Shown one piece after another: positions 6,011-22,496 of a stretch of DNA of 64,000 bases (position 1 is its first letter; every line of letters starts with the position of its first letter). Source of the DNA: Polyangiaceae bacterium (lineage in GTDB: Bacteria; Myxococcota_A; Polyangia; Polyangiales; Polyangiaceae); the NCBI GenBank assembly GCA_022842465.1, contig JALHPN010000001.1, positions 1-64,000 of the forward strand, read 5' to 3'. The notes under the pieces are model-generated. The model was not told the origin of the DNA. It searched no databases and saw only the letters and a list, made by a program, of their open reading frames with translations. A program made the translations under genes and the position numbers.

Positions 6011-6022
6011 ACCGAGCGGCCG

Positions 6023-7306: not shown

Positions 7307-7374
7307 GGCGCGTCCCCGCTCGCGACGAAAGCGGGTGAATTGTTCGTGTCCTGCGCATACCATCCGCGAAAATC

Positions 7375-8688
7375 ATGGCCGACGTACTCAGCGGTTTCCC
7401 CGAGTGGCTCCCCGAGGAAGAGCTCTTCCAGCGGCGCTTGATCGACACCGTGCGCCAGCAGTTCGAGCTCCACGGGTTCACGCCGCTCCAGACGCGCTCG
7501 ATCGAGCTCGCCACCGATCTCGTCGGCGAGGGAGGGGACACCGACAAGGAGATCTACGGCGTACATCGCCTCGCGGCGGAGCCTACGCCCGACGCGAAGC
7601 TCGCGCTCCACTTCGACCTCACCGTTCCGTTCGCGAGGTACGTCGTCGAGCGCCGTAGCGCGCTCACGTTCCCGTTCCGGCGCTACCAGATCCAGCAGGC
7701 GTGGCGCGGCGAGCGCCCTCAGCTCGGGCGCTACCGCGAGTTCATGCAGGCGGACGCAGACGTGATCGCGTCGGGCACGATGGACGTTCGCTTCGATCGC
7801 GAGATGGTCGCGCTCCTTCGCACGACGCTCGACGTGCTCCCGATCCCGCGCGTGAAGCTCCTCCTGAACAACCGGAAGCTCCTGGAAGGCTTCTACCGCG
7901 GCCTCGGGATCGAGGACATCATCGGGACGCTCCGCATCGTCGACAAGATCGCGAAGATCGGCCCCAAGGCCGTGGAAGAGCGCCTCGTCGCGCGCGGCCT
8001 CTCCGCTCACCAGGCCGAGCGCTGCGTCGCGATCACGACAGTCGAGATCCGAGGCGACGAGGACGCTGCGCGCGTGAAGGAGCTCGGCGTGGAGCATCCG
8101 CTCCTCACCGAGGGGCTCTCGGAGCTGCTCTTCGTGCTCGGCGCGGCGAAGGACGCGGCGCGCCCCGACTCGATCGTCGGCGCGCTCTCCATCGCACGCG
8201 GGCTCGACTACTACACGGGCACCGTCGTCGAAGGCGTCTTCGAAGAGCATCCGCAGCTCTCGGCGGTGTGCTCCGGCGGCCGTTACGACAACCTCGCCTC
8301 CGGAAAGACGAAGGAGCCGCTCCCCGGGGTCGGCGTCTCGATCGGCATCAGCCGCATCATGGGCTACTGCGCGCACCTGGGCCTCCTGAAGCAAGAGCGA
8401 CCGCGGCGCTCGCCGGCCGTCGTGTATGTGCTCGTCCACGCCGACACGGAGCGCGAGGCCTCCGAGCTCGTCGCGCGGACGCTCCGACGCCGTGGGATCG
8501 CCGCTCTCGTCTCCGATTCGTCCGCCGCTTACGGAAAGCAGATCCGCGCGGCGAATCAGCTCGGCGTTCCCTACATCTGGTTCCCCGCGCGAGGAGACGG
8601 GCCCCACGAGGTGAAGGACCTCGTCTCCGCCCAGCAGGAGCCCGCGGATCCCGCGACCTGGTCGCCGGCGCCCGTCTCGCCCTCCTGA
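7375..8688 (+). CDS. hisS: Histidyl-tRNA synthetase
   Basis: 437 aa class II aminoacyl-tRNA synthetase that charges tRNA-His. Visible are motif 2 (WRGERPQLGRYREFMQAD), the histidine-binding signature ARGLDYYTGTV, the GGRYDNLASG box, motif 3 (GVGVSIGISR) and a C-terminal anticodon-binding domain beginning near VYVLVHAD. The N-terminus is short (MADVLSGFPEW) and the usual PxGxxD opening is modified, as in the HisS2-type group. It is divergent from the HisRS-like gene and converges on the glycosyltransferase gene after 11 bp. Confidence 0.9.
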   Translation: MADVLSGFPEWLPEEELFQRRLIDTVRQQFELHGFTPLQTRSIELATDLVGEGGDTDKEIYGVHRLAAEPTPDAKLALHFDLTVPFARYVVERRSALTFPFRRYQIQQAWRGERPQLGRYREFMQADADVIASGTMDVRFDREMVALLRTTLDVLPIPRVKLLLNNRKLLEGFYRGLGIEDIIGTLRIVDKIAKIGPKAVEERLVARGLSAHQAERCVAITTVEIRGDEDAARVKELGVEHPLLTEGLSELLFVLGAAKDAARPDSIVGALSIARGLDYYTGTVVEGVFEEHPQLSAVCSGGRYDNLASGKTKEPLPGVGVSIGISRIMGYCAHLGLLKQERPRRSPAVVYVLVHADTEREASELVARTLRRRGIAALVSDSSAAYGKQIRAANQLGVPYIWFPARGDGPHEVKDLVSAQQEPADPATWSPAPVSPS

Positions 8689-8699
8689 CGCCCAAGACA

Positions 8700-9827
8700 T
8701 CACGCGCCTCCGTGATCGGAGGCGAAGCGATCGGCGAAGTGCCTCCAGTCGAGCTCGCGGACGACGCTGCTCGGCGCTCTGGCCATCGCCTCGAAGCGCT
8801 CCGGCGCCCTCGCGCATGCAAGGATCGCCTCCGTCAACGCCGCCACGTCGCCTGGGGTGACGAGGGTCCCCGACACGCCGTCCTCGACGAGCTCGGGTAG
8901 GGCGCCCACGCGCGTCGCGACGACGGGAATCTTCGCCGCACATGCCTCCGCGACGGAGAGCCCGAAGCTCTCCATTCCCGTCGGGAACACGGCGAGCCGC
9001 GCGCGACGACACTCGTCCTGGATGCGCTCCGCAGAGGCGCGGCCGCCCCAGACGACGGAGTCGCCGAGTCCGAGCGCGTCGGCGCGTCCGCGCAGCTCGC
9101 CGTCGAGCGGTCCGGTGCCGAAGATGGTGAGGGTCGCGTCGGGCACGACTCCACGCACGCGACCGAACGCGTCCAGGAGGACGTCGACGTTCTTCGGGTG
9201 TGCGAGACGGCCCCAATGCACGATCCGGAAGTCGCCGCCGGGCTCGCGCGGTGTGGAGAACCAGCTCGGCTCGACGCCGGGGCGCCTCAGCCGGATCGAC
9301 GCCGGGCTCCGTCCCGCGTTCTCGGCGACCGTCCGTCGTGACCAGTCGCTGAACACCACGACGTCGTCCGCCTCGCGGAGGGCGCGGCGGACGAGGTGGT
9401 AGTCGAGGTCGATCGCCGCGCTCCGGAGGCACCGCCTCACGCCGCCCCGCACGTCGAGCGGTGCGGGGAGCCAGATCCCGTGGAACACGTAGACGAAGCG
9501 GACTCCGAGTCTCCTGCAGACGTCAGGGAGGAACACGGCGTTCACGGAGTGACCCACCACCACGTCGAACGGATGCCGGCGATGGAGCCGTCGGACCGCG
9601 GCCGCGTGCTCGAAGGCCTCGAGCCTCCAGTTGCCGAGAGCGCGGTTCGGCGTCCAGTGGACCTCATAGGAGGCGCTGCTCGCCGGCAAGGGGCCGCTCC
9701 GCGTGTAGAGGGCGTGCACCTCGTCGCCTCGTGCACGCATCGCTTCGGCCATGGCGTGCACCGCGAGCTGGCCACCGCCGGAGAACGGCGCCCAGGGCGA
9801 GGAGAAGATGGCATGGCAGACGCGCAT
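8700..9827 (-). CDS. GT4-family glycosyltransferase
   Basis: 375 aa GT-B glycosyltransferase. The N-terminal domain begins MRVCHAIFSSPWAPFSGGG, a typical acceptor-side glycine loop. The C-terminal domain has HWGRLAHPKNVDVLLDAF and the donor-binding E-x7-E region around ESFGLSVAEACAAKIPVVAT. It is the last gene of the minus-strand biosynthetic operon, 13 bp after the PanE-like gene. It would attach a sugar to the pathway product or an envelope glycan; the acceptor is unknown. Confidence 0.85.
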   Translation of the reverse strand: MRVCHAIFSSPWAPFSGGGQLAVHAMAEAMRARGDEVHALYTRSGPLPASSASYEVHWTPNRALGNWRLEAFEHAAAVRRLHRRHPFDVVVGHSVNAVFLPDVCRRLGVRFVYVFHGIWLPAPLDVRGGVRRCLRSAAIDLDYHLVRRALREADDVVVFSDWSRRTVAENAGRSPASIRLRRPGVEPSWFSTPREPGGDFRIVHWGRLAHPKNVDVLLDAFGRVRGVVPDATLTIFGTGPLDGELRGRADALGLGDSVVWGGRASAERIQDECRRARLAVFPTGMESFGLSVAEACAAKIPVVATRVGALPELVEDGVSGTLVTPGDVAALTEAILACARAPERFEAMARAPSSVVRELDWRHFADRFASDHGGA

Positions 9828-9840
9828 CGGGACCTTCGGC

Positions 9841-10665
9841 TCAGGAGCGGCTCAGATCGGTGAGGAGCGAGGCGACGGCTCGCCTCGGGAGATCGTGCGC
9901 GGTCAGGGCACGGAGCGGGGCGCCGAGCACCGCGTCGAGCTCCATGGGGGCGCCGCGTCGACGGTCTTGGAGCATCGACGGCTCGAAGTCGCCCATCGCC
10001 TCGGCAGCGCGGCGGACGACGTCGTCGGGCGCGGGGACGAGATGGCCGCGGAGCTCGGCGAGCGCCGCGATCTCCCCGGCCACGTCGCACGCGCGACGGA
10101 GAAGAATAGGATCGGCGAGGACCGCCCGGGGGGCGACGCGATGGAGCGCGGCGACGGCGTTCAGCCCCGCGCTGACGAGGAGCTTCTCGTAGCGGAGGGC
10201 GTCCATGCGTGCGACGGGCTCGAGGGTCACGGCGACGTCCGCCGAGCCCGCGAAGACGTCCGCGAGCGCGTCTCCCGCGGGGCCCGCCGAGGCGACCAGC
10301 CTGACCGGACCGCGCCAGATCGCACGTCCGTCGCCCGCGCGCGAGGCGCACGCCCACGCGAGCGCGAGGCAGACGGGAGACGGCGTCTGCGGGAGGCCGT
10401 TCGACACGACGATGACCCGTGACGGGGCCCCGACGGCCGCGAGCGCGCCGTCGAGATCATGAGCCTTCACCGTCACGATCGCGATCGGGGCATGCTCCGC
10501 TCTCGCGAGATCGACCGCGTCTTCGCCCAGCGCCGCGCGCGCGAGCGGCCCTTGCCGCCCCAGGCACGCGACGACGAGCCCGCGCTGCGCGGCGCGGACG
10601 GCGAGGCCGAGCCCGAGGCTCCCGGCGCCGATGACGACGACGTCGGCCGAGGGCGGACGGCTCAT
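9841..10665 (-). CDS. Ketopantoate-reductase-like dehydrogenase (PanE family)
   Basis: 274 aa. The NAD(P)-binding Rossmann motif VIGAGSLGLGLA lies near the N-terminus. The conserved VTVKAHDL segment follows where PanE has VKaxq. The C-terminal helical domain has YEKLLVSAGLNAVAAL, close to the PanE signature K-x-x-x-N. In PanE these residues bind ketopantoate. Its ATG overlaps the PurD-like stop (ATGA). Because a PanC-like gene is two genes upstream, it may reduce a 2-keto acid in a pantoate-like branch; the true substrate is not known. Confidence 0.75.
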   Translation of the reverse strand: MSRPPSADVVVIGAGSLGLGLAVRAAQRGLVVACLGRQGPLARAALGEDAVDLARAEHAPIAIVTVKAHDLDGALAAVGAPSRVIVVSNGLPQTPSPVCLALAWACASRAGDGRAIWRGPVRLVASAGPAGDALADVFAGSADVAVTLEPVARMDALRYEKLLVSAGLNAVAALHRVAPRAVLADPILLRRACDVAGEIAALAELRGHLVPAPDDVVRRAAEAMGDFEPSMLQDRRRGAPMELDAVLGAPLRALTAHDLPRRAVASLLTDLSRS

Positions 10666-11924
10666 CGAGCCTCGTGCCGGGCGCCGATGTCCGTCCGGTA
10701 GTGCATGCCCGGGAACGCAAGCGTCGACAGTCCGCGATAGAGCCGCGCTCGCATGTCGTCGCTCGAGGCGCCCTCGGCGCGGACGCAGAGCGAGCGCCCT
10801 TCGCCGGCGAGGAGCACGTCGTCGCCGCGCACACCTTCGCCGAAGATCTCGACGTCGGACGGCACGGCGTCGAATCCACGGATCCTGTTCTTGTGGTCGT
10901 GGCGGACGAGCGGATAGCCCGGCACGGTGCAGAACGCGCAGCCGACGACGAGGTCCTTCCGCCACCGCGGTGGCGTCCTCCCGCGGAGGACGTCTCCCAG
11001 CGGCACGTCGAGGAGCGGGAGGAGCGCGACCCACTCGGGGTTTCCCGGACGGACGTTGTACTCGAGGGCGACCGGGCCCTCGTCCGTCCACATGACGCCG
11101 ACGTAGAGCACGCCGCGGTAGGTGCGTCCTTCCGCGACGAGCCCGCGGCGGGTCGGTGCGAGGACTCGCTCTTCGAGTCGGGCTTCGTCCTCCGGCGAGA
11201 GCTCGCCTCCAGCGAGGGCACCCATGCCGTGCGTGTTGGGGCCGGCGTCGCCGTCGAAGAGCGCCTTGTAGTCGCGGACCGGCGGCGCGACGGAGAACAC
11301 CCCGTCGTCGAGGAGGACGTGAACGGACGACTCGCGGCCCTCGATCCGCCGCTCGACGAGGATCGCGGAGCCGCGCGCCTCGGGGGCGCTCGCGAGGCGT
11401 CTCACGGCAGCGGCCGCCTCGTCGAGGTCGCGAGGCACGGCGGTCCGGAGCGCTGCGTCCGACAGATAGCGATCGGATTTCACGACGTAGCGATGCCCGG
11501 CCGGTCCGTCGCTCCATGCATCGCGGAGGAACGTGATCGCCTGCTCCGCGCTCGTGAAGGACGCTGCCTCCGGGGTCATGACGCCGTGACGACGCATGAA
11601 GTCCTTCGCAAGGACCTTGCTCAGCTCGAGCTCTGCGGAGGGGAGATCGGGACCGACGACGCGCACACCGGCCCGGGCGAGAAGCGAGGCCGCGCCGGCG
11701 AAGAGGAGCTCGGGGCGCTGGATCACCACGGTGTCGACGTCACCGCGCGCGACGCGCTCGCGAACGTCGTCGAGCCCGGACATGCGGTGGACGCCTGGGC
11801 TCCGCGCGAGGAGCGCGTTGGCGCCGAGGAGGGCGACCTCCGCCTCGGTCCCCTCGGCGCGGAGCCGCGCGTAGACCGCGTGATCGCGTGCGTCTCCCGC
11901 ACCGACGACGAGGATGCGGCTCAC
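10662..11924 (-). CDS. PurD-like ATP-grasp ligase
   Basis: 420 aa, the length of glycinamide ribonucleotide synthetase. The start MSRILVVGAGDARDHA resembles PurD's GxGGREHA. The ATP-grasp region has GRESSVHVLL, GDAGPNTHGMGA (PurD: GDxGPNTGGMGA) and LEYNVRPGNPE (PurD: EFNxRxGDPE). The changes at key glycine and Asp positions suggest a different amine or carboxylate substrate. It starts with GTG inside the PanC-like stop (GTGA). Likely role: amide bond formation through an acyl phosphate. It is probably not the housekeeping purD, judging by its context. Confidence 0.8.
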   Translation of the reverse strand: MSRILVVGAGDARDHAVYARLRAEGTEAEVALLGANALLARSPGVHRMSGLDDVRERVARGDVDTVVIQRPELLFAGAASLLARAGVRVVGPDLPSAELELSKVLAKDFMRRHGVMTPEAASFTSAEQAITFLRDAWSDGPAGHRYVVKSDRYLSDAALRTAVPRDLDEAAAAVRRLASAPEARGSAILVERRIEGRESSVHVLLDDGVFSVAPPVRDYKALFDGDAGPNTHGMGALAGGELSPEDEARLEERVLAPTRRGLVAEGRTYRGVLYVGVMWTDEGPVALEYNVRPGNPEWVALLPLLDVPLGDVLRGRTPPRWRKDLVVGCAFCTVPGYPLVRHDHKNRIRGFDAVPSDVEIFGEGVRGDDVLLAGEGRSLCVRAEGASSDDMRARLYRGLSTLAFPGMHYRTDIGARHEAR

Positions 11925-12826
11925 GCGGCGTCTCCCGGGAACCGCTGCTCGAGCCAGATCGTCGGCGGGCCCTTCTCGATGTCCTCGTCCGTGCGGAGGA
12001 GGAAGCCGTCGAAGTGGTTGATGACGCCGTTCGTGACGACGAAGTGGACGATGAGGCCTCCGCGGTCCGGCACGCGCTCGGGCTCGGTGAGCTCCGCCGG
12101 CTCGGCGAGCTTCGCGTAGCAGAGGCGGAACGTCCGGAGCCTGAGCTCTTCGCGCGCGCGTGCGAGGACGACGTCGGAGCGGCGTTCGCCGGCGGCGACC
12201 GCGGTCCGCGCAGCCTCGAGCGCCCGATGGACGCTCGCGATCTCCTCGAGGGCGCCGCGATCGAGCTTCAGGAGCCGCGACGAGATCGGTATGCCGCTGC
12301 GGTATCGCACGCACGGGACCTCGCGGATCTCGGTGTCGATCATGAGGTCCGTGACGGCGCGCCTCACGAGGAGAGTCTGCCCGATGTCCTTCAGGCCCCA
12401 GTACGTGCGCGTCGGGCGCACGAACGAGATCCACCGGATGCACATCGTGATCATCCCGCGGAAGAGGAACGGGACGACCGTGCCGTCGAGCCGCTTCGTC
12501 TTCTCGCCCTGGTCGAGGAACGTCCCGTAGTCCGGCGGGTACATCTCGTCGTCCGTAGCGTGGATCACGTGCGTCGCGCCGCTCGCGCTGGCGAGCGCGA
12601 GGTCGCGATCGAGGTCGTACGCGTAGCGGGTGCCGGGCGCGAGCTGCGCCTTGTTCGGGTAGACGGACACGACGACGTGGTCGTTCTCCTTCGCCGCCAG
12701 CTCGATGACGCGCGCGTGCCCTTCGTGGAGGGCCCCGAGCGTGTGCACGGACCCGATGCTCCCGCCGCCTCGATGGAGATCTCGGAGGACGAGGCGGGCT
12801 TCGTTCAGAGAGAGCAGGTGGGTCAT
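11921..12826 (-). CDS. Pantothenate-synthetase-like ligase (PanC family)
   Basis: 301 aa nucleotidyltransferase-fold ligase. SVHTLGALHEGH (residues 26-37) contains the HxGH nucleotide-binding motif of PanC. SGIPISSRLLKL corresponds to PanC's DGLAMSSRN box, but the Asn is Leu. The C-terminal 60 residues do not look like PanC. PanC joins pantoate and beta-alanine through an acyl adenylate. With the adjacent PurD-like and PanE-like enzymes, it may activate another acid. It lies 15 bp after asnB and overlaps the next gene by four bases. Confidence 0.78.
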   Translation of the reverse strand: MTHLLSLNEARLVLRDLHRGGGSIGSVHTLGALHEGHARVIELAAKENDHVVVSVYPNKAQLAPGTRYAYDLDRDLALASASGATHVIHATDDEMYPPDYGTFLDQGEKTKRLDGTVVPFLFRGMITMCIRWISFVRPTRTYWGLKDIGQTLLVRRAVTDLMIDTEIREVPCVRYRSGIPISSRLLKLDRGALEEIASVHRALEAARTAVAAGERRSDVVLARAREELRLRTFRLCYAKLAEPAELTEPERVPDRGGLIVHFVVTNGVINHFDGFLLRTDEDIEKGPPTIWLEQRFPGDAA

Positions 12827-12841
12827 GTCGCGTATCCCGAT

Positions 12842-14407
12842 TCAGCGAGAGGTGAGCGCCGTGGTGTTGAGCTGGGGCCGCGGGAGGTCGAGGACGAGGT
12901 TGTGGAACCCGTGCTCGACCCAGCGCGCGAAGTCGAAGACCTCCTCGAGGTTCTCTCCGTCGACGCCATGGGCGGCGCCGAGCGCGGCGACGGAACCGCG
13001 GTCGCGCGCGAGGCGCTCTGGCGACGTCTCGTAGAGCGAGCGCACGGCGCGGTAGTAGATGCCGTCGCCGGGGTCGTTCGATCCGAAGCCGGCGCCGGCG
13101 TTCATGCCGATCTTCGCGCGCTCGCGGTTGGCGGCCGGGATGGCGGGGAAGGCCTCACGGAGCGCGACCTTGTTCCGTCCCGGCTCGCTTCGCGCCCACG
13201 GCGGGAGCGTCGCGGCGTGGTCCACGAACGTCGCGTCGAGGAAGGGGACGCGCACCTCCAGCGTCGCGGCCATCGACGCCCGGTCGGCCATCTGGAGGTA
13301 GGTCCGGTGGACGTCGACGAGCGAGCGACGTATGGCGCGATCGCGGTCCTCGGCGCGGAGTCGGTCGAGATACGCGTAGCCGCCGAACACCTCGTCGGCT
13401 CCTTCGCCGCTGAGGCAGAGGGCGTGGCCCGCCCGTCGGACCTCGCGACAGAGGACGTGATAGCTCACCGCGTTCCGTACGAGCGCCGGCTCCCACGTCT
13501 CGGTCATCCAGACACCGCGCTCGAGGTAGATGCGCGTGAGCTCCTGCTCCGTGGGGCTCACGACGTGGAGCGGGATGTCCAGCGTCCGGCAGAGCGCCTC
13601 GGCGGCGTCCCGGTCCTCCGACCGTCCGTCGCCGATCGCGAGCGTCCACGCCTCGACGGGGCCCTCGTGGAGCGCGTGGGCGAGATGGGTGACGGTGGAG
13701 CTGTCGACGCCGCCGCTGAGGAGACACGCGAGCGGGCGCCCGGGCTCGGGGAGGTGCGCACGGACGGCCTCCGTGAGGGCCTCGGCGACGCCGGCGAGCA
13801 CGGTCCGGCGATCGCGCGCGTCCGAGGCGCCGAAGGCAGGGACCTGCCAGAACGGTCGGCTCCTCCCTGCCACGTGGACCGAGCCGGGCGCCACCTGGGC
13901 GATGCGCAGCGAAGGCTCGACCGCGAGCGCCTTCACCTCCGACGCGAACCACGTCGATCCTTCGTGCTCGGCGACGTAGAGCGGCTTGATGCCCAGCGGA
14001 TCGCGAGCGAGGACGACGCGGCGTCCGTCCTCGACGATCGCGACCGCGAACATGCCTCGAAGGCGCGCGAAGCTCGCCTCGCCCCAGCGGAGGTAGCTCG
14101 CGAGGACCACCTCCGTGTCGCACGTCGTCCGGAACGACCAGAAGCCGGCGAGCTCACGGCGGAGCGCAGGCGCGTTGTAGATCTCCCCGTTCGCGATGCA
14201 CACGACGGTGCCGTCCGGCGTCGCGAACGGCTGCGCGCCTCCGGCGGGGTCGACGATCGCGAGCCGGTTCGTTCCCACCGCGAAGAGGTCGCCCGCGAGG
14301 CGCTCCGCCTGTCGCGACGTCTCTCCGCGGTGAGCGATGCGGGCGAGCATCTTCACGAGCGTCGCCTCGACGGCTGCGGGGCCCACGATCCCAGCGATGC
14401 CGCACAT
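12842..14407 (-). CDS. Asparagine synthetase (glutamine-hydrolysing) family
   Basis: 521 aa. The glutaminase domain starts at MCGIAGIVGP, giving the N-terminal nucleophile Cys2 after Met removal; this fixes the start at 14407. The synthetase domain contains the PP-loop LLSGGVDSS, LSGEGADEVFGGY and a region of aspartate/arginine pairs typical of AsnB. In peptide clusters AsnB homologues make amides or lactams. The start lies one base after the SHMT-like stop, so it is co-translated with that operon. A housekeeping asparagine role is possible but less likely in this setting. Confidence 0.9.
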   Translation of the reverse strand: MCGIAGIVGPAAVEATLVKMLARIAHRGETSRQAERLAGDLFAVGTNRLAIVDPAGGAQPFATPDGTVVCIANGEIYNAPALRRELAGFWSFRTTCDTEVVLASYLRWGEASFARLRGMFAVAIVEDGRRVVLARDPLGIKPLYVAEHEGSTWFASEVKALAVEPSLRIAQVAPGSVHVAGRSRPFWQVPAFGASDARDRRTVLAGVAEALTEAVRAHLPEPGRPLACLLSGGVDSSTVTHLAHALHEGPVEAWTLAIGDGRSEDRDAAEALCRTLDIPLHVVSPTEQELTRIYLERGVWMTETWEPALVRNAVSYHVLCREVRRAGHALCLSGEGADEVFGGYAYLDRLRAEDRDRAIRRSLVDVHRTYLQMADRASMAATLEVRVPFLDATFVDHAATLPPWARSEPGRNKVALREAFPAIPAANRERAKIGMNAGAGFGSNDPGDGIYYRAVRSLYETSPERLARDRGSVAALGAAHGVDGENLEEVFDFARWVEHGFHNLVLDLPRPQLNTTALTSR

Positions 14408-14408
14408 C

Positions 14409-15656
14409 TCAGACCTCGTCCGCCGGGTGGCAGTAGGCGAGACCGCGGAACTCGCCCGAGAGAGCGGCGACACGTGGAGCGACACGCGCGGAGACGTCGA
14501 CCGCGCTCGCGTCGCGCGCGGCCGCGAAGAGGTCGGCGACGGCGCGCATCGCAGCCGGGCCCATCCCACGTCGAGCGGCCTCGGCGACGCCGATCCGGAA
14601 GCCGAACGCGCCGCGACGGTACGGGACCGAGACGAGGTTCACGAACAGGCCCGCCTCGTCCAGCCTCGCGAAGAGCCGGACGGCGTCGCTCTTCGCTCCG
14701 ACGACGCACACGATCTGGTGCGAGCTCGTGAACTCCCTCTCCGGGAAGAGGATGTCGAAGCCGTGGTCGGTGAGCCCGGCGCCGAGGGCGCGCGCGTTCT
14801 CGACGACGCGGTCGGCGTAGGCGCGGCCGAACTCGGCCGTCTCCGCGAGCGCGACGGCCAGCGCGAGGACGTGGTGCGCGTGCACGTTCGAGACGAAGAG
14901 CGGGATCGTCGCCTCGAGCACCCGCTCGGCGAGCTCGCCGCCACGGCGGAAGACGAAGAGCCCCTTCTGCGGCCCGAAGAGCGACTTGTGGGTGCTCCCC
15001 TGGAGCGCGTCCGCGCCTTCGGCGAGCGGATCCTGGAACCTTCCGGAAGCGATGAGCCCCATCGTGTGGGAGGCGTCGTAGACGATCGCCGTGCGATCCG
15101 GCAGCGCCGCGCGGAGCTCGGCGACGGGGTGCGGGAAGAGCTGCGTGCTCGCGTCGAGGAAGACGAGGTCGACGCGCTCCGCCGCGCAGAGCGCCGCGGC
15201 CGCGCCGACGTCGATGCGCCCGGCGGCGTCGTCGTAGGGCAGGTCGAAGCGAGGATGCCCGAACCGCCGGCAGAGCGCGTCGGTCGCGAAGTGTCCCCCG
15301 CAGTACGCGGGGATGGACGCCACGCGGCCTCCCGCGGGGAGCCCGCACGTGAGGAGGATCGCGGCGGCGTTGTTGCCGGAGAGAGGGCGTACGTCCGCGA
15401 CCTCGCCGCCGAAGCGCTCGCAGGCGAGGGCCTCGGCGCGAGCGAGGAGCGACCGCATCGAGGACTGGTTCGGGTAGTCCCACATCCCCGGTGGCCGCGC
15501 GTCCTCGGGCGGCATCACGTAGCGGTTGCCGACGTCGCTCGCGAGCGCGCGGCGGCACGCGGGCGACACGCGGTTCTCACTCGCGACGAGGCTGATCGTG
15601 CGCCCGCGACGCGCCTCGTGCTCGTCGAGGATGGAGAGCAAGGACCGCACGCTCAT
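14409..15656 (-). CDS. SHMT-like PLP-dependent enzyme (GlyA fold)
   Basis: 415 aa, fold type I. The N-terminal ISLVASENRVSP is the serine hydroxymethyltransferase signature. DASHTMG (195-201) is the PLP aspartate/histidine region, and Lys224 in GSTHKSLFGP is the Schiff-base lysine (GlyA: STTHKTLRGPRGG). GPQKG replaces GPRGG, and the C-terminal part is diverged. It could catalyse aldol addition or hydroxymethyl transfer on an amino-acid-like substrate. It overlaps the radical SAM gene by four bases (ATGA). Confidence 0.85.
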   Translation of the reverse strand: MSVRSLLSILDEHEARRGRTISLVASENRVSPACRRALASDVGNRYVMPPEDARPPGMWDYPNQSSMRSLLARAEALACERFGGEVADVRPLSGNNAAAILLTCGLPAGGRVASIPAYCGGHFATDALCRRFGHPRFDLPYDDAAGRIDVGAAAALCAAERVDLVFLDASTQLFPHPVAELRAALPDRTAIVYDASHTMGLIASGRFQDPLAEGADALQGSTHKSLFGPQKGLFVFRRGGELAERVLEATIPLFVSNVHAHHVLALAVALAETAEFGRAYADRVVENARALGAGLTDHGFDILFPEREFTSSHQIVCVVGAKSDAVRLFARLDEAGLFVNLVSVPYRRGAFGFRIGVAEAARRGMGPAAMRAVADLFAAARDASAVDVSARVAPRVAALSGEFRGLAYCHPADEV

Positions 15657-17620
15657 GCCGTCGTCTCCATCGCGAGGGGAGCTCGCGCGCGTTCGCCGAT
15701 CGCCTCGCGTCGGACGACGCGGCCGTTCCACGAGCCCGTCAGGTCGCAGTTCTTGTCCTGCAGCTTCGCGAGGCCGCCCCGGTGCGCGATCGTGAGCCGG
15801 GTGGGCCGCGCGGACAGAAGCCAGCTCCGCCATCCGTCCCCCGGGACGAGGAGACGGCGTGAGAGCTCGACGGGGTCGAACGCGAAGTCGCAGGTGCTCT
15901 CGACGAGGCCGCTCTCTGCGAGCTCGGAGCGAGGCAGGAGCGCGCAGTCGAAGCGCAGGAGGTCCCTGAGCACGGGGACGATCGGGTCCTCCGCGGTCGA
16001 CTCGGCGAAGTAGCTCTCCATGAGAGCGTTCGTGTCCGCTCGCGACCGGAAGAGGAGGTCGCGCTTGCGAGCCCGCAGCGCTCGCTCGAAGTAGCAGGCG
16101 CGCCGGATCCGGGCGAAGAGCGCGTGTAGCTCGGCCGCGAGCGGAAGCTCGGAGCGCCTCAGGAACGGCTCGAGTCCGGCGATGACGTCCGCGACGCTCC
16201 TGCCGTCGTGTCGCGCGAGCAACCTGAGGGTGTTCCGCGCCGGTCCGAGCAGGCTGAGCATCGAATGCCCGAGCAGGAAAGCCAGGCCGTCGGCCATGTC
16301 GTCCATCGTCATGTCGGCGTGTGCGATGACGGCCTCGTAGTCCGAGGACGGATCGGGGCTTATCGTGCGGATGCCGAGCTCGTCGCGGCGGTCGTGGTAG
16401 TCGGTGTTCGGGAGCAGCCACAGCGGGTGGATGCGGAGGTTCGGGAACGTCGCGTGGAGCTCGTCGTAGTGCACCTTGAACTGCGCGAAGGACTCGCCGG
16501 GCATCCCGAAGATCAGCTCGCAGTAGATGTCGCTCCGCTCCGCCGCGAGGTCACGCGCGAGCTCGATCATCTCCGCTCGCCCACGCTCCGTACGGCCGGC
16601 GATCTCGAGCGCGCGGAGGGACAGCGTCTGGAGCGGGACGTTGATCGGGACGTGGATCCCCGCGTCGCGCAGGATGCGGATGAAGTCGCCGACCGCGCGG
16701 GCGTTGTTCTTCGCCCAGTTGATGTTCACCTCCGCGGGCGCGCCGTACTTGCGATACGTGCTCGCGATCGCGCGCGCGACGTCGATGTCCTCGGGGAGCA
16801 TCCCCACGTTCGCGTCGCACAAGAAGAGCGTCGCGATGCCCGCTCGGCCGATGACCTCGAGGTCCGCCTCCGCGCGGGCGACCTCGCCGCGTCCGATCTT
16901 CTGACCGATCCGCCCGCCCCAGTAGCAGAAGCCGCAGCGATAGGGGCAGCCGCGATTGGTCTCGAGCAGAGCGATGTCGTACCGGCGGAAGTCGACGTCC
17001 GCGAGCATGTACGGCGAGGGGAGCTCGGTCATCGAGCGCGTACGATCACGGTCGGGCGTCGTCTCGATCTCCGCTCCGCGCCGGAACGAGAGGCCGCGGA
17101 CGGTCGCGAGGGGGGTGTCCTCGAGCAAGGCCGCGAGGAGATCGCAGAAGGTCCCCTCGCCCTCGCCGTTGACGACGACGTCGACCTCCGGGTGGGCGGG
17201 CAGGACGAGCGCCGACCGATGGGAGACGTGGTTGCCGCCGAGCACCATGAGCGATGCGGGCAAGAACTGGCGGATAGGCGAGAACGTGGCGGCGAGCTGG
17301 CGAATGTTCCATCCCTGGCAGGACATCGCGACGACGTGCGGCGCGCTCCTGGACACCGCCTTCACGATCTCGGCCGACGTGTTCGATTGCGTGAACTCGG
17401 CGACCTCGATCTCGACGCGGCCCGTCAAGCGAGGATCCGCCAGCGCCGCAGCGCGGAGGGAGAGCGCCGCGAGCGGTGTGTAGAGGATGTTGGTCTCGCC
17501 CGAGAGATCGACGACGACCACGCGGAGGACCTCTCCGTCGGGGGCGCGGCCGCGGCGTGCGGGCGGAGCAGCGCTCTTCGCCGGCGCTTCGTGCTGGTGG
17601 ACGACGAGTGCCCGTTTCAT
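15653..17620 (-). CDS. Cobalamin-binding-domain radical SAM enzyme
   Basis: 655 aa. Residues about 30-170 form a B12-binding-like Rossmann domain (VVVVDLSGETN, LMVLGGNHVS, VDVVVNGEGE). The radical SAM domain follows with the [4Fe-4S] ligands Cys225, Cys229 and Cys232 in CPYRCGFCYWGG, then the iron-sulphur-side GELIFGMPGES-type region. The last 200 residues are an unassigned helical domain. Such enzymes methylate unactivated carbons or make ring systems in RiPP and other pathways. ATG 17620 overlaps the stop of the gene upstream. The substrate could be the short peptides at 21155-21935, but that is inference. Confidence 0.88.
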   Translation of the reverse strand: MKRALVVHQHEAPAKSAAPPARRGRAPDGEVLRVVVVDLSGETNILYTPLAALSLRAAALADPRLTGRVEIEVAEFTQSNTSAEIVKAVSRSAPHVVAMSCQGWNIRQLAATFSPIRQFLPASLMVLGGNHVSHRSALVLPAHPEVDVVVNGEGEGTFCDLLAALLEDTPLATVRGLSFRRGAEIETTPDRDRTRSMTELPSPYMLADVDFRRYDIALLETNRGCPYRCGFCYWGGRIGQKIGRGEVARAEADLEVIGRAGIATLFLCDANVGMLPEDIDVARAIASTYRKYGAPAEVNINWAKNNARAVGDFIRILRDAGIHVPINVPLQTLSLRALEIAGRTERGRAEMIELARDLAAERSDIYCELIFGMPGESFAQFKVHYDELHATFPNLRIHPLWLLPNTDYHDRRDELGIRTISPDPSSDYEAVIAHADMTMDDMADGLAFLLGHSMLSLLGPARNTLRLLARHDGRSVADVIAGLEPFLRRSELPLAAELHALFARIRRACYFERALRARKRDLLFRSRADTNALMESYFAESTAEDPIVPVLRDLLRFDCALLPRSELAESGLVESTCDFAFDPVELSRRLLVPGDGWRSWLLSARPTRLTIAHRGGLAKLQDKNCDLTGSWNGRVVRREAIGERARAPLAMETTA

Positions 17621-19536
17621 TTCCAAACCTCCGACGTGACAGGGGTGCAATCGCTGCGCCGGGCGGGGCCGTCCGGTCCGCGGGGCGCGTTCCAGGCCTC
17701 GCCTCGCACGAAGCGGCCGGCGACGCCGAGCTCGCCGGTCGGCCACAGCACGAGGAGCGCGGCTCGGCACGGGGTCGCCGACCAGGCCTCGCGGCACGCG
17801 AGCTCGGGCTCGGCCGCTCCGCCTTCGCCGGCGGGCCACGCGAACGTCCGCCGGTAACGCGCCATCGGCACGTCGAGCACGAAGCGGACGTCGGCCGCGC
17901 GCACCGGGAGGTCGCCGCGCGGTCGCACGACGGGGCCCACGTCGAGATCGAGGACCAGGCGTCGACCGACGGGGACGTCCTCGACGATCCCGCAGTTCGC
18001 GCACAGGGCGACCCGGCGCGCGGCGATCGGGAGCACATGGTCGACGTGGAGGACCTGGAGGCTCCGGTCGCAGTAGCTGCAGCGCTCGGTGGGCTGAACG
18101 TGGATTCGCCCGCGGAGCGCGGTGGCGACCCCGGTCGGATTCGTCCATCGCGCGGCGAGGAAGTCGAGCATGGCCGTCCGCATCGCGGGCCCGGGCGCGT
18201 CGTCGCCCCCTTCGAGCGGGGCCTGTCGGAGGAGGGCGAGCTCGTAGCGCGCGAGCGCGGCCAGGACGGGCGCTCGGTCGTCCGCGCCCTCGCCGCGCGC
18301 GCCCCCTTCGCGCTCGGCGGGTGCGAGCGTCGCGAGCGCGCGGAGGAAGCCGAGCTGCGCGAAGCGAGTCGTCGCCAGCGTGGCGTCGTCCGGCGGGACG
18401 GAGATCGTCGCGAGCTCGAGCCGCGGCGCGCGCGTCGAGGGCGTGCAGCGGGGGTCGCCGACGAGCGCCATGCGGAACAGACGGTCTGCGGCCTGCCGTC
18501 GATTGTGGCGCCCGAGGGCGATCCCCACCGCTTCGCCCGCGCTGAGGTCCGCGGTGAGCACGTCCGTCGCGAGGTGTGTCCCGGTGACGATCTCCCAGCC
18601 CGCGACGAGGGCACCGACTCGGAGGTCCTCGACGAAGCGTCGGCTCAGCGACCAGAGCGGAGCGTTCGTCGACGGCGGCGGTCGCAGACCGAAGCAGATA
18701 CCCGCCACGAGGACACGAGCGCGGAGCTCGCTCGGGGCGAGGAGCTGGCCGCTCGCGAGCGCTTCCCGGATGTCGACCTTCTTCCGGAAGCAGTAGCCGT
18801 TCGTCTTGCACGTCGGGGCGAGCGCCCGGTCCCACGCATCGCCGACGTCCTGATCCATCGGGCAGAGGACGACCTCTTCGCTGAGGAAGGCGTCCACACC
18901 GTTCGAGTGCGTCACCACGGAGAGGACGCCGACGGCGTCGGCGAGGGCGTCGCGGACCGCGGGCGCCGAGCTCTTGCCGCCGACGAGGCGCCAGTCGGGC
19001 GCGATGTCCGTCACCGCGACGCCGGCCGACGCCACCATGTCGAGACGGCGGATCGCGATCGGGGTGGCGATCACGGCCGCGGCGGAGCGGGCGAGGACCT
19101 GGACACGGAGCTTCGACGCATCCTCTGCGAAGACCAGGCCTACGGCGGGGCGATCCTCGTCGCCGGAGTAGAGTCGCTCGAGCAGGGCGTCGTCGATGTG
19201 CTCGCGCAGGGTCACGATCACGTCGACGTTGCCGAGGCCGATGACCTCGGCAGCATCTCGGACGATGCCACCGTCGCGCCGCCCCGTGAGGTGGGCGTAG
19301 AGCCGAGCTTCCTCCTGGAGGCCCGGGCCGAGGGCGACGACGCGCCGCTCGAGGTCGAGCGCAGGCGGCGCCGTCGTCGTCGCGTCCACGACGGCGAGAC
19401 GACCGCCCATGAGCTCCGTCATGCGCCGGAGCGCGAGCGCTTCGCCGTCGTCGCGGATCGGCCAGACGGGGCGCCCCTCGAACCAGAGCAGCTCGCCCTC
19501 GATCGCGGGGGCGCAGGGCACGATCGCCGACGTCAT
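17617..19536 (-). CDS. Putative caspase-like (CHAT/C25-type) peptidase with C-terminal HNH-like zinc module
   Basis: 639 aa. Residues about 200-365 show the order of motifs seen in CHAT and C25 peptidases: His210 in VVTHSNG, Cys281 in ARVLVAGICFG, an AxGA-type helix region (VGALVAGWEIV), an LSAGEAVGIALGRH helix and LVGDP (358-362). A possible His210-Cys281 dyad follows. Residues 486-515 contain CSYC, HVDHVLP and CANC, like the zinc-braced HNH fold but without the later Asn. It overlaps both neighbours by four bases. A protease role in maturing the upstream peptides is attractive; a nuclease role is the alternative. Family assignment is by eye only. Confidence 0.5.
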   Translation of the reverse strand: MTSAIVPCAPAIEGELLWFEGRPVWPIRDDGEALALRRMTELMGGRLAVVDATTTAPPALDLERRVVALGPGLQEEARLYAHLTGRRDGGIVRDAAEVIGLGNVDVIVTLREHIDDALLERLYSGDEDRPAVGLVFAEDASKLRVQVLARSAAAVIATPIAIRRLDMVASAGVAVTDIAPDWRLVGGKSSAPAVRDALADAVGVLSVVTHSNGVDAFLSEEVVLCPMDQDVGDAWDRALAPTCKTNGYCFRKKVDIREALASGQLLAPSELRARVLVAGICFGLRPPPSTNAPLWSLSRRFVEDLRVGALVAGWEIVTGTHLATDVLTADLSAGEAVGIALGRHNRRQAADRLFRMALVGDPRCTPSTRAPRLELATISVPPDDATLATTRFAQLGFLRALATLAPAEREGGARGEGADDRAPVLAALARYELALLRQAPLEGGDDAPGPAMRTAMLDFLAARWTNPTGVATALRGRIHVQPTERCSYCDRSLQVLHVDHVLPIAARRVALCANCGIVEDVPVGRRLVLDLDVGPVVRPRGDLPVRAADVRFVLDVPMARYRRTFAWPAGEGGAAEPELACREAWSATPCRAALLVLWPTGELGVAGRFVRGEAWNAPRGPDGPARRSDCTPVTSEVWK

Positions 19537-21014
19537 GTCGAGCCCTTCTTCGTGAGGTCGACGAGGAGCCGCTCGAGGTCGCCGACGAAGCGTCGCGTGG
19601 CGGCGTCGTGCTCCGTGCTCTCGAGCGCCTCCTTCATGCCGCGGCACCGGTCGGCGAAGAACGGGGCACGCACCCCGCGGAGTCGCGACTCCGTGAAGTC
19701 CACCTTCACGAGGCTGGCCTCGTAGAGGGCTACCCCGCTGAGGTCCGCGCCTTCGAGGACCGACTGGTTCAGGCGCGCGTAGGTGAGGTTCGCGCTCCGG
19801 AGGTTCGCGCTCCGGAGGTCGGCCGCGACGTAGGCCTGCACGAGGTTCGCGTTCTCGAGCTTCGCCTCGAAGAGCGACATCGCCCGGGGCGGATCTCCCG
19901 TGAGGACGGCGCGATAGAGGTAGGCACTGCTCAGGTCGGCCCCCCCGAGGTCGCAGTCGCGGAAGAGGGCGCACCGCGCCGTCAACCGTCGCATGTCGGC
20001 GCGAGGCATCGTCGTCTCGACGAACCTCGCGTTCTCGGCGTTCGCGCCCTCGAGCACGACGCCCGGCAGGCGGCAGTCGACGAACGACGCGCCGTCGAGC
20101 TTCGCGGCGCGAAGAACCGCCCGTTCGATCGAGCACTGGTGGAAACGTGCGTCGTCGAGCGTCGCGCTCGCGAAGTCGGCAGAGGACAGCATGCAGTCGA
20201 GGAAGTCCCCGAGCGGGGCGCGCAGCCCGGCGCCGAGGACCGAGCCTCGCAGACCGTCGCATCGCAGCGCGGGCAAGTCGGCTTGCTCCAGCACGAGGTC
20301 GCCCGAGGCGGTAGGACGCTGGATGACGAGCGCACGTCCCGAGACGCGCGCGAGCCTCGTGCGGCTCATCCTGCACTTCGTGATGGTGACGCTTCCGACG
20401 GCGGACCCGTCGAAGTCGGCCTCGTCGAGGATGCACTCGTTGAACGTCGACCCCTGGAGGATCGCCTGCCCGAAGCGCGCCGTCGCGAGGTCGCACTGGT
20501 AGAAGGTCGTCCCCGCGAGCATGGCCCGGTCGAAGGTTGCGGACGTGAGCTTGCAGCCGTGGAAGAGGGCGCCCGTCGCGTCGACGAGGTCTCGGAGGTC
20601 GGCGTCGCTGAAGTTGCAGACCTGAGCGGCGAGCGCATGGACGTAGGCGCCGCGGAGGTTCGCTCCGGAGAGGTCCGTGCGCTCCATCCCCGGGCAGACG
20701 AGGGAGGCCTCCGAGAGGTTCGCTCCGGCGAGTCGCGTCCGGTGGAGACAGGCCCGGTTCAGCGACGCGCGGCGGAGGTCGAAGCCCGCGAGGTCCAGCC
20801 CCGCGAGGTCGGTGTCGTCGAGGACGAGACCGCGCCCGGTCGCGTTCAGGAGCGCCGTCGTGAGGGCCGCTACGCGCGCGCACGCCTCGCTCCGGGGCGC
20901 GAGCTTCGACCACTCCCGGAGGAGCGCGTCGTGCGGACGCTCTGGAGCGGCGGCTCCCGCCGTCGCGACGGGGAGAGAGCCATCGATGGCGTGAGGATGT
21001 CGAGCTTCGATCAT
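19533..21014 (-). CDS. Pentapeptide-repeat protein
   Basis: 493 aa made mainly of A(D/N)LxX pentapeptides from residue 70 to about 450 (for example DLAGLDLAGFDLRRASL, LRSANLRSANLTYARL), which fold as a right-handed quadrilateral beta-helix. About 55 non-repeat residues precede it. Some family members (Qnr, McbG) protect DNA gyrase from toxins or peptide antibiotics; others are of unknown role. ATG 21014 is used since upstream residues look like untranslated leader. It is the first gene of the overlapping operon, just after the hairpin at 21061-21097. A self-immunity role is a guess. Confidence 0.85.
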   Translation of the reverse strand: MIEARHPHAIDGSLPVATAGAAAPERPHDALLREWSKLAPRSEACARVAALTTALLNATGRGLVLDDTDLAGLDLAGFDLRRASLNRACLHRTRLAGANLSEASLVCPGMERTDLSGANLRGAYVHALAAQVCNFSDADLRDLVDATGALFHGCKLTSATFDRAMLAGTTFYQCDLATARFGQAILQGSTFNECILDEADFDGSAVGSVTITKCRMSRTRLARVSGRALVIQRPTASGDLVLEQADLPALRCDGLRGSVLGAGLRAPLGDFLDCMLSSADFASATLDDARFHQCSIERAVLRAAKLDGASFVDCRLPGVVLEGANAENARFVETTMPRADMRRLTARCALFRDCDLGGADLSSAYLYRAVLTGDPPRAMSLFEAKLENANLVQAYVAADLRSANLRSANLTYARLNQSVLEGADLSGVALYEASLVKVDFTESRLRGVRAPFFADRCRGMKEALESTEHDAATRRFVGDLERLLVDLTKKGST

Positions 21015-21060
21015 GACGACTGTCCGGGAATGAGGGGCGCGAGGAGAAGTAGGCCAGAGG

Positions 21061-21097
21061 CCCGCGGTGGTGGCGCCTTGCGGGCCACCACCGCGGG
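21061..21097 (-). terminator. Perfect 14-bp hairpin after peptide gene A
   Basis: The arms CCCGCGGTGGTGGC (21061-21074) and GCCACCACCGCGGG (21084-21097) are exact inverted repeats around a 9-nt loop. It lies 58 nt downstream of the peptide A stop and 47 nt upstream of the pentapeptide-repeat gene. No U-run is present. It may terminate the abundant peptide transcript partially, letting a fraction read into the enzyme operon, the arrangement common in peptide antibiotic loci. Confidence 0.7.
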
Positions 21098-21154
21098 TCA
21101 CGGCAAGCGCGAGGCGAGCGCGTCACGCAGCAGGTGTGCGTGTCGCGCGCGCGC

Positions 21155-21388
21155 TCACCAGCAGAAGGCTCCGCACTTGATGTTCACGCCGAAGGAGTGC
21201 AGGGCCACGCACGCCTTCTCGTCGAGCTCGGAGCTGCGCCCCGAGTCGTCGCTCGACGTGCCTTCGCCGGCCTTCCGGTCGCCGCCCAGGACCTGGACCT
21301 TGACGTCCTCGGTCTGCGTCGGCTCCGCCTCTGCGGCGCAGCCGACGAGGCCGAGCCCGAGGAGTGTCACGAGAGTGTTCTTGTTCAT
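21155..21388 (-). CDS. Short lipobox-leader Cys-rich peptide A (candidate precursor)
   Basis: 77 aa. The first 17 residues are a lipoprotein-type signal ending LVGC (Cys17). An acidic, Ser/Gly/Thr-rich middle contains VQVLGGD (31-37), which resembles a double-glycine site. The C-terminus is hydrophobic with Cys60, Cys72 and Cys76, ending SFGVNIKCGAFCW. A GGAG Shine-Dalgarno lies 5 nt before ATG 21388. It is paralogous to peptide B, with both ends conserved and the middle diverged, as in precursor families. It could instead be a plain small lipoprotein. No known RiPP family was recognised. Confidence 0.7.
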   Translation of the reverse strand: MNKNTLVTLLGLGLVGCAAEAEPTQTEDVKVQVLGGDRKAGEGTSSDDSGRSSELDEKACVALHSFGVNIKCGAFCW

Positions 21389-21608
21389 GTCGTCTCCAGA
21401 AAAGAGGTGCATGCGCACCAGTCCAACCGTCGCGATCACGCGGCACCGAGGGCGCCGAGCGAAGGCGAGCGATGACGATGCCTCTTGCACGCGACGGGCC
21501 GGTCGGACGTCCCGTAGATCTCCGCTCCCGCGTGTGCGGGTTGCTCACTTCACGATCTCGCGACGCGCGATGTGGGATCGAAGCGACGAGCGGCGGGGAA
21601 GGGCCGTG

Positions 21609-21650
21609 GGCCCGTGGCGGTGGCGCCTCGCGGGCCACCCGCCACGGGCC
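21609..21650 (-). terminator. Hairpin after peptide gene B
   Basis: GGCCCGTGGCGGTGGC (21609-21624) pairs with GCCACCCGCCACGGGCC (21634-21650) with one bulged base. It is at the equivalent place, about 55 nt after the peptide B stop, and belongs to the same duplicated block as the hairpin at 21061-21097. Confidence 0.65.
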
Positions 21651-21704
21651 ACGGCGAGCGCGAGGCGGTGCGTCACGCAGCGGGTATGCGTGTCGCGCGC
21701 GCTC

Positions 21705-21935
21705 TCACCAGCACCAAGCTCCGCACTTGATGTTCACGCCGAAGGACTGCAGCATGCAGGCCTTCTCGTCGAGCTCGGAGCTCCGAGCCGACTCGTCGCC
21801 CGACGAGGCTTCGTCGGTCTGCTGATCGCCGCCGAGGACCTGGACCTTGACGTCGTCGGTCTGCGTCGGCTCCGTCTCGGCAGCGCAGCCGACGAGGCCG
21901 AGCCCGAGGAGGGTCACGAGAGTGTTCTTGTTCAT
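21705..21935 (-). CDS. Short lipobox-leader Cys-rich peptide B (candidate precursor)
   Basis: 76 aa paralogue of the gene at 21155-21388. The first 17 residues are identical (lipobox LVGC, Cys17) and VQVLGGD is kept. The C-terminus has Cys60, Cys71 and Cys75 and ends SFGVNIKCGAWCW. The middle (residues 38-50) differs most. A GGAG ribosome site lies 12 nt upstream of the ATG. Paired GTGATCAC palindromes lie about 170 nt upstream. It is the first gene in the minus-strand series leading to the enzyme operon. Confidence 0.7.
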   Translation of the reverse strand: MNKNTLVTLLGLGLVGCAAETEPTQTDDVKVQVLGGDQQTDEASSGDESARSSELDEKACMLQSFGVNIKCGAWCW

Positions 21936-22131: not shown

Positions 22132-22496
22132 ATCGCGCGCCTGCTCGGAGCGACGACGTGTCTCGCGCGGTGTGAACTCTGTTGCACCTCGAGCGCACGC
22201 TTGCGCTCATCTGGTCGCCTTGCACGCTCCGCGCCGCACGGGGGGCGGTCCAGCCCAGGACCGCCTCGGGCCCCGCCGCGGCGAGCCGTCGACGCCGGCC
22301 AGCCCGACCGTGGGACCGAGGAAAACGCTCGGCGCGCCGCTGCCGTAGGCCCCGCGGGGGCGCCGAGCAGGCGGCTCCTCTCGGGGAAACGCCCGGCCTC
22401 GAAGACGGATGTCGCGGAAAACGCGTCGCCGTGGTACCCGGTGCGCCGAACCCGAGGCCACTCCGGCCCGGCCGTACTCACGAAGAGAGAGACCCC

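Follow-up and report, generated by a model that had tools for sequence, protein, structure and literature searches.

The window, as we call the first 64,000 nucleotides of contig JALHPN010000001.1 from a Polyangiaceae bacterium (assembly GCA_022842465.1), contains a compact group of genes that we read, on a modest balance of probability, as a dedicated locus for a specialized metabolite. The locus would span about 4823-21935 and encode a pseudo-peptide pathway that operates without nonribosomal peptide synthetases (NRPSs) and with the assistance of a pair of histidyl-tRNA synthetase (HisRS) proteins. It includes a pentapeptide-repeat protein (PPR) whose relatives accompany a PanC-like gene in Bradyrhizobium, and HisRS and HisZ-like genes on Streptomyces plasmids. 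The C-terminal tail of this protein is the least expected result of the analysis. The cluster is undescribed in the titles and abstract openings of the papers listed in our literature survey, as the original prediction had held when it stated that no described pathway has this gene set. What makes it distinctive is the PPR family, not the two short genes that the prediction had placed at the center.

The gene order was borne out when starts, stops and junctions were rechecked: two tandem short genes of 76 and 77 codons stand ahead of nine genes on the minus strand. Within the nine-gene run, the overlap is 4 nt at five of the eight junctions, and gaps of 1, 15 and 13 nt separate the genes at the remaining three, in keeping with the claim that the genes mostly overlap by 4 nt and are never more than 16 nt apart. 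The first short gene lies 316 nt from the second, which lies 140 nt from the PPR gene. While the nine-gene run holds as predicted, an end at 8700 is too short, as HisRS and its paralog adjoin it: the 3' end of HisRS is 11 nt from the glycosyltransferase gene, on the other strand, and the paralog starts divergently 11 nt from the start of HisRS. A membrane-type protein, recognized by eye and matching no family in family scans, follows 12 nt downstream of the paralog. The features are as follows.

21705..21935, minus strand: pep1, 76 aa, with a lipobox-like LVGC, an acidic linker and a C-terminal Cys-containing segment, ending CGAWCW
21600..21660, minus strand: hairpin 3' of pep1, -49.8 kcal/mol, z -4.37 (folded 21595-21665)
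21155..21388, minus strand: pep2, 77 aa, pep1 paralog at 82% identity, ending CGAFCW
21051..21109, minus strand: hairpin 3' of pep2, -43.3 kcal/mol, z -4.46 (folded 21045-21115)
19533..21014, minus strand: PPR, 493 aa, C-terminus GST
17617..19536, minus strand: "casp" protein, 639 aa, no family assigned, with a conserved CxxC...CxxC ribbon
15653..17620, minus strand: B12-binding radical SAM protein, nearest to the KedN5 C-methyltransferase family
14409..15656, minus strand: SHMT-fold enzyme dependent on pyridoxal phosphate (PLP), top model fluorothreonine transaldolase
12842..14407, minus strand: glutamine-dependent asparagine synthase family protein (AsnB), N-terminal MCGIAG
11921..12826, minus strand: PanC-like protein of the pantoate-beta-alanine ligase superfamily, of a subfamily common to Bradyrhizobium
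10662..11924, minus strand: PurD-like ATP-grasp ligase, from family scans
9841..10665, minus strand: PanE/ApbA-like reductase, from family scans
8700..9827, minus strand: GT4-type glycosyltransferase, from family scans
7375..8688, plus strand: HisRS, divergent but complete (287.5 bits, cut-off 286.75)
6023..7363, minus strand: HisZ/HisRS paralog, with RGLDYYTG and some of the motif-2 region absent
4823..6010, minus strand: membrane-type protein

The PPR family and its C-terminal tail

The PPR is a PENTAPEPTIDE-repeat protein with orthologs in Bradyrhizobium, on Streptomyces plasmids and on two phage contigs, at 43-56% identity. Within the phylum, none of 376 other genomes had a match at E<=1e-70. 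We assembled 26 Bradyrhizobium loci, 25 from a scan with a PanC alignment and one from a plasmid (L016); one of them (L025) is cut by a contig end. PPR and a PanC-like gene stand side by side in all 26, and since the loci were fetched by PanC, the presence of PPR is an independent observation. Unbroken Bradyrhizobium copies of PPR share about 43-48% identity with that of the window, the plasmid copy aligning over 438 residues without a gap, while interruptions or frameshifts affect the copies in L023, L039 and L043. Identity of the PanC-like proteins is 40.7-43.7% in 25 of the 26 loci; the copy in L043 is partial, at 53%. PanC was not found in viral contigs.

Eight Streptomyces plasmid records matched PPR, seven of them at 49% identity. 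Three records (Mg1, ADI95-16 and goshikiensis) place PPR in a cluster that also has an adenylate-forming enzyme, an M16 peptidase, an ABC transporter, PLP enzymes, sugar-tailoring genes, a HisZ-like gene and hisS, the last being seen in all three of the records examined among the seven. When the Streptomyces HisZ-like protein was used as query, the same seven PPR plasmids, and no other of 72,556, matched at E<=1e-3. Two IMG/VR contigs carry PPR at 47-56% identity beside a PAPS-reductase-like gene, and a second PPR scan returned the same two. In one (L077, 8186-11398) the neighbors include portal, protease and major head genes, and a ParB-like gene lies between PPR and the PAPS-reductase-like gene; the other (L078, 8279-11176) has a terminase gene, and its PPR copy is without some internal stretches. 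The phage copies carry the GST tail as well. In a tree of the family, the window, Streptomyces and phage copies fall together against those of Bradyrhizobium, a placement that is unsure because long branches meet. In Bradyrhizobium diazoefficiens, a table of nodule expression reports a differentially expressed pentapeptide-repeat gene in soybean nodules, with USDA110 ortholog blr1851, listed next to the P450 gene blr1853 (PMC8632152). From gene order only, we infer that the blr1851 ortholog is the PPR described here.

We compared the ends of 32 PPR genes, namely those of the window, 26 Bradyrhizobium loci, two phages and three of the seven Streptomyces records. The last residues are G-S-T in 26 and G-S-S in four, giving a GS[T/S] end in 30 of 32; in both exceptions (L039 and L043) the 3' frame is shifted. 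The codons of the tail vary synonymously among the genes, which makes a constraint at the level of the protein likely. Eight representatives, four of them from Bradyrhizobium, all share the residues at -2 and -3 and end in T or S at -1; before these, from -4 to -27, no position is invariant, the best being -6 with G in seven of eight. Three distant outgroup PPRs are without the tail. The stop after GST is TGA in 32 of 32 genes. Readthrough at this codon was considered and rejected, since the extensions of 16 genes show no conservation and all 13 listed window genes use TGA.

Two explanations of PPR have to be weighed here. In the first, PPR would be a carrier, with the product assembled by ligases on the C-terminal G-S-T/S tail and released by a protease. 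Its arguments are the near-universal tail with its synonymous variation, the confinement of invariance to -2 and -3, the tailless outgroups, the lack of a conserved extension past the stop and the M16 peptidase in the Streptomyces cluster. Each context also has a family able to adenylate: the PanC-like protein in the window and Bradyrhizobium, the adenylate-forming enzyme in Streptomyces and the PAPS-reductase-like protein in phages. Amino-group carrier proteins provide an analogy. However, the conserved tail may instead serve dimerization or docking, and no amide ligase is evident in the phages. To our knowledge a PPR carrier is without precedent, and no PPR scaffold or carrier appeared in the titles and abstract openings surveyed. 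We consider the carrier unlikely. Broader still, and quite improbable in our view, is the proposal that a PPR beta-helix with a GS[T/S] tail is loaded by stand-alone ligases of the PanC-like, adenylate-forming and ATP-grasp types and by an aminoacyl-tRNA synthetase (aaRS) pair, holds the product while it is modified and releases it. One and the same carrier would then serve different clusters in bacteria that are not related, and phages would carry it too.

The second explanation is self-resistance of the kind seen in cystobactamid-type clusters: the cluster would produce a topoisomerase inhibitor, and PPR would shield DNA gyrase from it. Protecting gyrase is what pentapeptide-repeat proteins are best known for, and they are reported to mark topoisomerase-inhibitor clusters in myxobacteria (PMC9231227). 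The window PPR does match the Qnr and MfpA models, at a distance: its scores fall far under the cut-offs (80.4 of 240 and 62.5 of 360 bits), and the best model, also below its cut-off, is HetL (118 of 260). Moreover, the orthologs have PanC as a neighbor in Bradyrhizobium and head genes around them in phages, and no gyrase-inhibitor genes were recognized in either context. Self-resistance also appears unlikely, and the partners and tail of PPR suggest that a scaffold or carrier role fits them better than gyrase protection does.

Enzyme families and a proposed pathway

Families were named from Pfam and NCBIfam scans of the proteins, scored against family cut-offs. Eight of the nine enzyme names in the original prediction agree at the superfamily level; the ninth, "caspase-like," is unsupported. 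The radical SAM protein scores 379.9 bits against NF033712 (KedN5), by far its best model, with a cut-off of 700. For the SHMT-like enzyme, TIGR04506 (fluorothreonine transaldolase) gives 236.3 bits (cut-off 650) and the SHMT model 204.8 (cut-off 335). AsnB scores 304.6 bits against TIGR01536 (asparagine synthase), above the cut-off of 267.1, and falls well short of the lasso and macrolactam cyclase models (NF033535, 104.7 with a cut-off of 525; NF033561, 51.4 with a cut-off of 300). The PanC-like protein has the HxGH, KD and SSR motifs by eye and reaches 146.3 bits against TIGR00018 (pantothenate synthetase; cut-off 212.75). As the PanC-, PurD- and PanE-like proteins score under their family cut-offs, we take them to be diverged paralogs; the PanC- and PanE-like proteins, cited in the original prediction as pantothenate-type tools, do not point to a pantothenate pathway.

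Judging by these families, the locus appears to hold three amide-forming families that differ in their chemistry, a C-C bond former, a methylase, a reductase and a glycosyltransferase. In the pathway that we propose, a beta-hydroxy amino acid would come from the SHMT/transaldolase-like enzyme, with C-methylation by the B12 radical SAM enzyme and reduction of a keto acid by the PanE-like enzyme. Amide bonds could be made by the PanC-like protein through an acyl-AMP and by the PurD-like protein through an acyl-phosphate, with AsnB carrying out an amidation, and GT4 would glycosylate the product. HisRS and its paralog may supply activated histidine or, alternatively, a resistant copy of the target. 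PPR would be the conserved partner of such ligases, as a protection factor or a scaffold. We infer every reaction, product and target of this pathway, on the basis of an observed gene order, the families, the PPR tail and the occurrence of PPR with PanC and with HisRS/HisZ-like genes. Two comparisons are consistent with it: KedN5-type radical SAM proteins adjoin NRPS or polyketide synthase (PKS)-type genes in two plasmid loci, and in Robbsia a relative of the PurD-like protein (33.5% identity) shares its locus with a PGM1-type peptide ligase. The genes scanned in the window locus itself include no NRPS or PKS module. Plasmid relatives of the radical SAM and SHMT-like proteins were considered as members of the same cluster and rejected; they sit in other clusters or contexts.

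The casp protein has no NCBIfam family and no Pfam family at E<=0.01. Its weak matches are to endonuclease VII over the Cys region (E 0.17, in Pfam at E<=10), to PtuB (0.056, in PADLOC) and to one PDB entry (0.27), and a single-sequence fold was unusable (pLDDT 37.5). One clear homolog was found, on a Rhodococcus opacus plasmid at about 29% identity. It keeps Cys281 and the four Cys of the CxxC...CxxC ribbon; the His of THSNG is replaced, so that a caspase/CHAT His-Cys dyad is not conserved in this one homolog. With no family match and the presumed catalytic His lost in the homolog, the caspase-like assignment is not supported. Viral contigs held no casp, and 281 other genomes of the phylum yielded one weak match of 73 residues. 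On the Rhodococcus plasmid (L017, 1334-4489 and 14962-16608) the surroundings of the homolog include short condensation and AMP-binding domain genes and a gene for isoleucyl-tRNA synthetase, an aaRS again near the casp family.

The HisRS pair and the short peptide genes

HisRS passes TIGR00442 by less than 1 bit, with RGLDYYTG and motif 2 intact by eye. Ten of 12 relatives have a HisRS of 425-486 bits and this genome has only the 287-bit copy; a candidate for a second HisRS (C265) reads as HisZ cut by a contig end. By eye, the paralogs of the window and of Streptomyces lack the same HisRS motifs and have a D-S-L motif in common. Phylum searches found no close counterpart of casp, the peptides, PPR or the HisRS paralog at the thresholds used, which agrees with a dedicated locus.

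Several observations weigh against a dedicated locus with a HisRS pair. Its G+C and codon-position profiles do not distinguish it, no full homologous operon was found, and substrates are not assignable for the radical SAM, SHMT-like, PanC-, PurD- and PanE-like enzymes, all of which fall below NCBIfam cut-offs. HisRS lies on the strand opposite to the nine-gene run and, at about 25% identity, appears not to be orthologous to the HisRS of the Streptomyces clusters. Its closest plasmid relative, from Embleya (45.6%), has neighbors that match no other window genes. The window paralog matched no plasmid when used as query, and it resembles the Streptomyces paralog weakly (27% across 173 aa; E 5e-4 against a database of two loci). 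Finally, the draft genome is 97% complete with 6% contamination, and completeness is 88% and 83% for the two relatives that have no typical HisRS. Because the draft and both of these relatives are incomplete, the assembly may have missed a typical HisRS.

HisRS and its paralog could also be unlinked neighbors, the cluster being the minus-strand run alone. We regard this as a serious, if minority, possibility. The strand, the apparent lack of orthology, the paralog without a plasmid match and the chance that this is the sole HisRS of the genome all speak for it. Yet none of the 376 other phylum genomes matches the paralog at E<=1e-10, and a HisRS and a HisZ-like gene recur with PPR in Streptomyces. 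On the reading that we favor, the HisRS adjoining the cluster is a testable target.

The short genes were predicted to encode precursors, and as genes they fared well: pep1 and pep2 are probably real, the product of a tandem duplication. Between them, nonsynonymous differences occupy 2/80 sites in codons 1-36, 9/34 in the linker and 4/60 in the Cys segment, against 4/28, 3/11 and 2/15 synonymous sites, all of them small numbers; codons 1-36 are thus little changed. Neither 3' hairpin was equaled in stability by any of 200 shuffles, and two base pairs differ between them by compensatory double changes. In a pattern scan neither was called an intrinsic terminator, and no promoter matched. The N-termini resemble lipoprotein signals, with a lipobox by eye.

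A role for the peptides as substrates is a different matter. Under this explanation, that of a ribosomally synthesized and post-translationally modified peptide (RiPP), the C-terminal Cys segment of pep1 and pep2 would be modified by the radical SAM protein, AsnB and others and released by casp. The tandem paralogs do lie directly upstream, their N-terminal region and Cys segment are conserved and the linker relaxed (on small counts), both genes have structured 3' hairpins, and RiPP enzymes are among the models matched by the B12 radical SAM protein and AsnB. Similar peptides were also absent from the 376 other genomes: weak matches arose in five (E 0.001-0.009), four being lipoprotein-signal-like N-termini of other proteins (frames of 127-490 residues) and the fifth lying inside a 381-residue frame, and none of the five ends like pep1 or pep2. 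But AsnB scores as an asparagine synthase with cyclase models far under their cut-offs, radical SAM proteins of the KedN5 type accompany NRPS/PKS-type genes in two loci, casp is only a putative protease, and the lipobox, like the weak matches, points to lipoprotein signals. No precursor-recognition element or transporter was recognized in family scans, with no dedicated tool applied, and no lanthipeptide, YcaO or LanB-like peptide aminoacyl-tRNA ligase (PEARL)-type enzyme was recognized among the scanned proteins, nor was a maturase for the two peptides. In Bradyrhizobium the PPR-PanC pair occurs, by eye, without any short Cys-ended frame upstream of PPR common to 23 loci, although some recur among close relatives. 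We judge a RiPP fairly unlikely, and this part of the original prediction is not supported. Plasmid matches to the peptides (E 0.2, seven Bradyrhizobium records) were discarded, as they fall in an RraA-type gene, and pep1 and pep2 have no significant match in Streptomyces loci L079 and L080. The Streptomyces cluster has two short hypothetical genes at its margin (L079, 3012-3519), with products of 70 and 71 aa, of which one has DIPLCC at its end; they are candidates for peptide genes.

Beyond the locus, an EF-G gene (22182-24632, plus strand, 950 bits) is divergent from the peptide genes, its frame extending about 107 codons upstream of the match. Near the contig start (605-2692), S10-type ribosomal-protein-looking genes are followed, by eye, by a serine-protease-like gene, which is not their usual continuation.

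Comparison with known systems

Cluster finders generally look for assembly lines or for RiPP maturases already known, and can pass over loci in which ligases act in single steps and the enzymes look like housekeeping ones. The nearest well-studied example of the proposed mechanism is albomycin, in which the transaldolase AbmH, the aaRS-like AbmF, the seryl-tRNA synthetase AbmK and the radical SAM protein AbmJ act together (PMC9032320). Its likeness to the window consists of a PLP transaldolase, a radical SAM protein and a full aaRS with an aaRS-like condensing enzyme. The synthetase, however, is for serine rather than histidine, and the passages cited name no PanC, PurD, AsnB, PPR or short peptides (PMC9032320). 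The gene content of the window is compatible, by analogy, with an albomycin-type, aaRS-assisted pathway.

PEARL systems such as that of 3-thiaglutamate resemble a PPR carrier in having, according to their summaries, a genetically encoded carrier that is extended at its C-terminus (PMC9303977, PMC9016710). They differ in the PEARL enzyme, which was not recognized among the scanned locus proteins, and in the carrier itself, a 50-residue peptide as opposed to a 493-residue repeat protein. Pentapeptide-repeat resistance of the cystobactamid and pyxidicycline type likewise puts such a protein in a biosynthetic cluster (PMC9231227); in contrast, the window PPR is far under the Qnr and MfpA models and has ligase partners.

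Two further parallels share PPR. The Bradyrhizobium pair has PPR and a PanC-like protein with the same subfamily motifs and tail; no other window genes matched in these loci, no HisRS was found in them with the Streptomyces query, and an ABC transporter is usually upstream. The plasmid cluster of Streptomyces sp. Mg1, S. goshikiensis and ADI95-16, for which we know of no product, has PPR with the GST tail, HisRS and a HisZ-like paralog, and resembles the window also in having a peptidase, an adenylate-forming enzyme and sugar-tailoring genes. It differs in that the other window enzymes have no significant match in L079 or L080. Should the tail prove to be a loading site, PPR would represent a novel type of carrier protein. 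The features that join the window to these two systems, namely the PPR-PanC association, the PPR-HisRS-HisZ association and the terminal GS[T/S] tail, provide handles with which to search for related loci.

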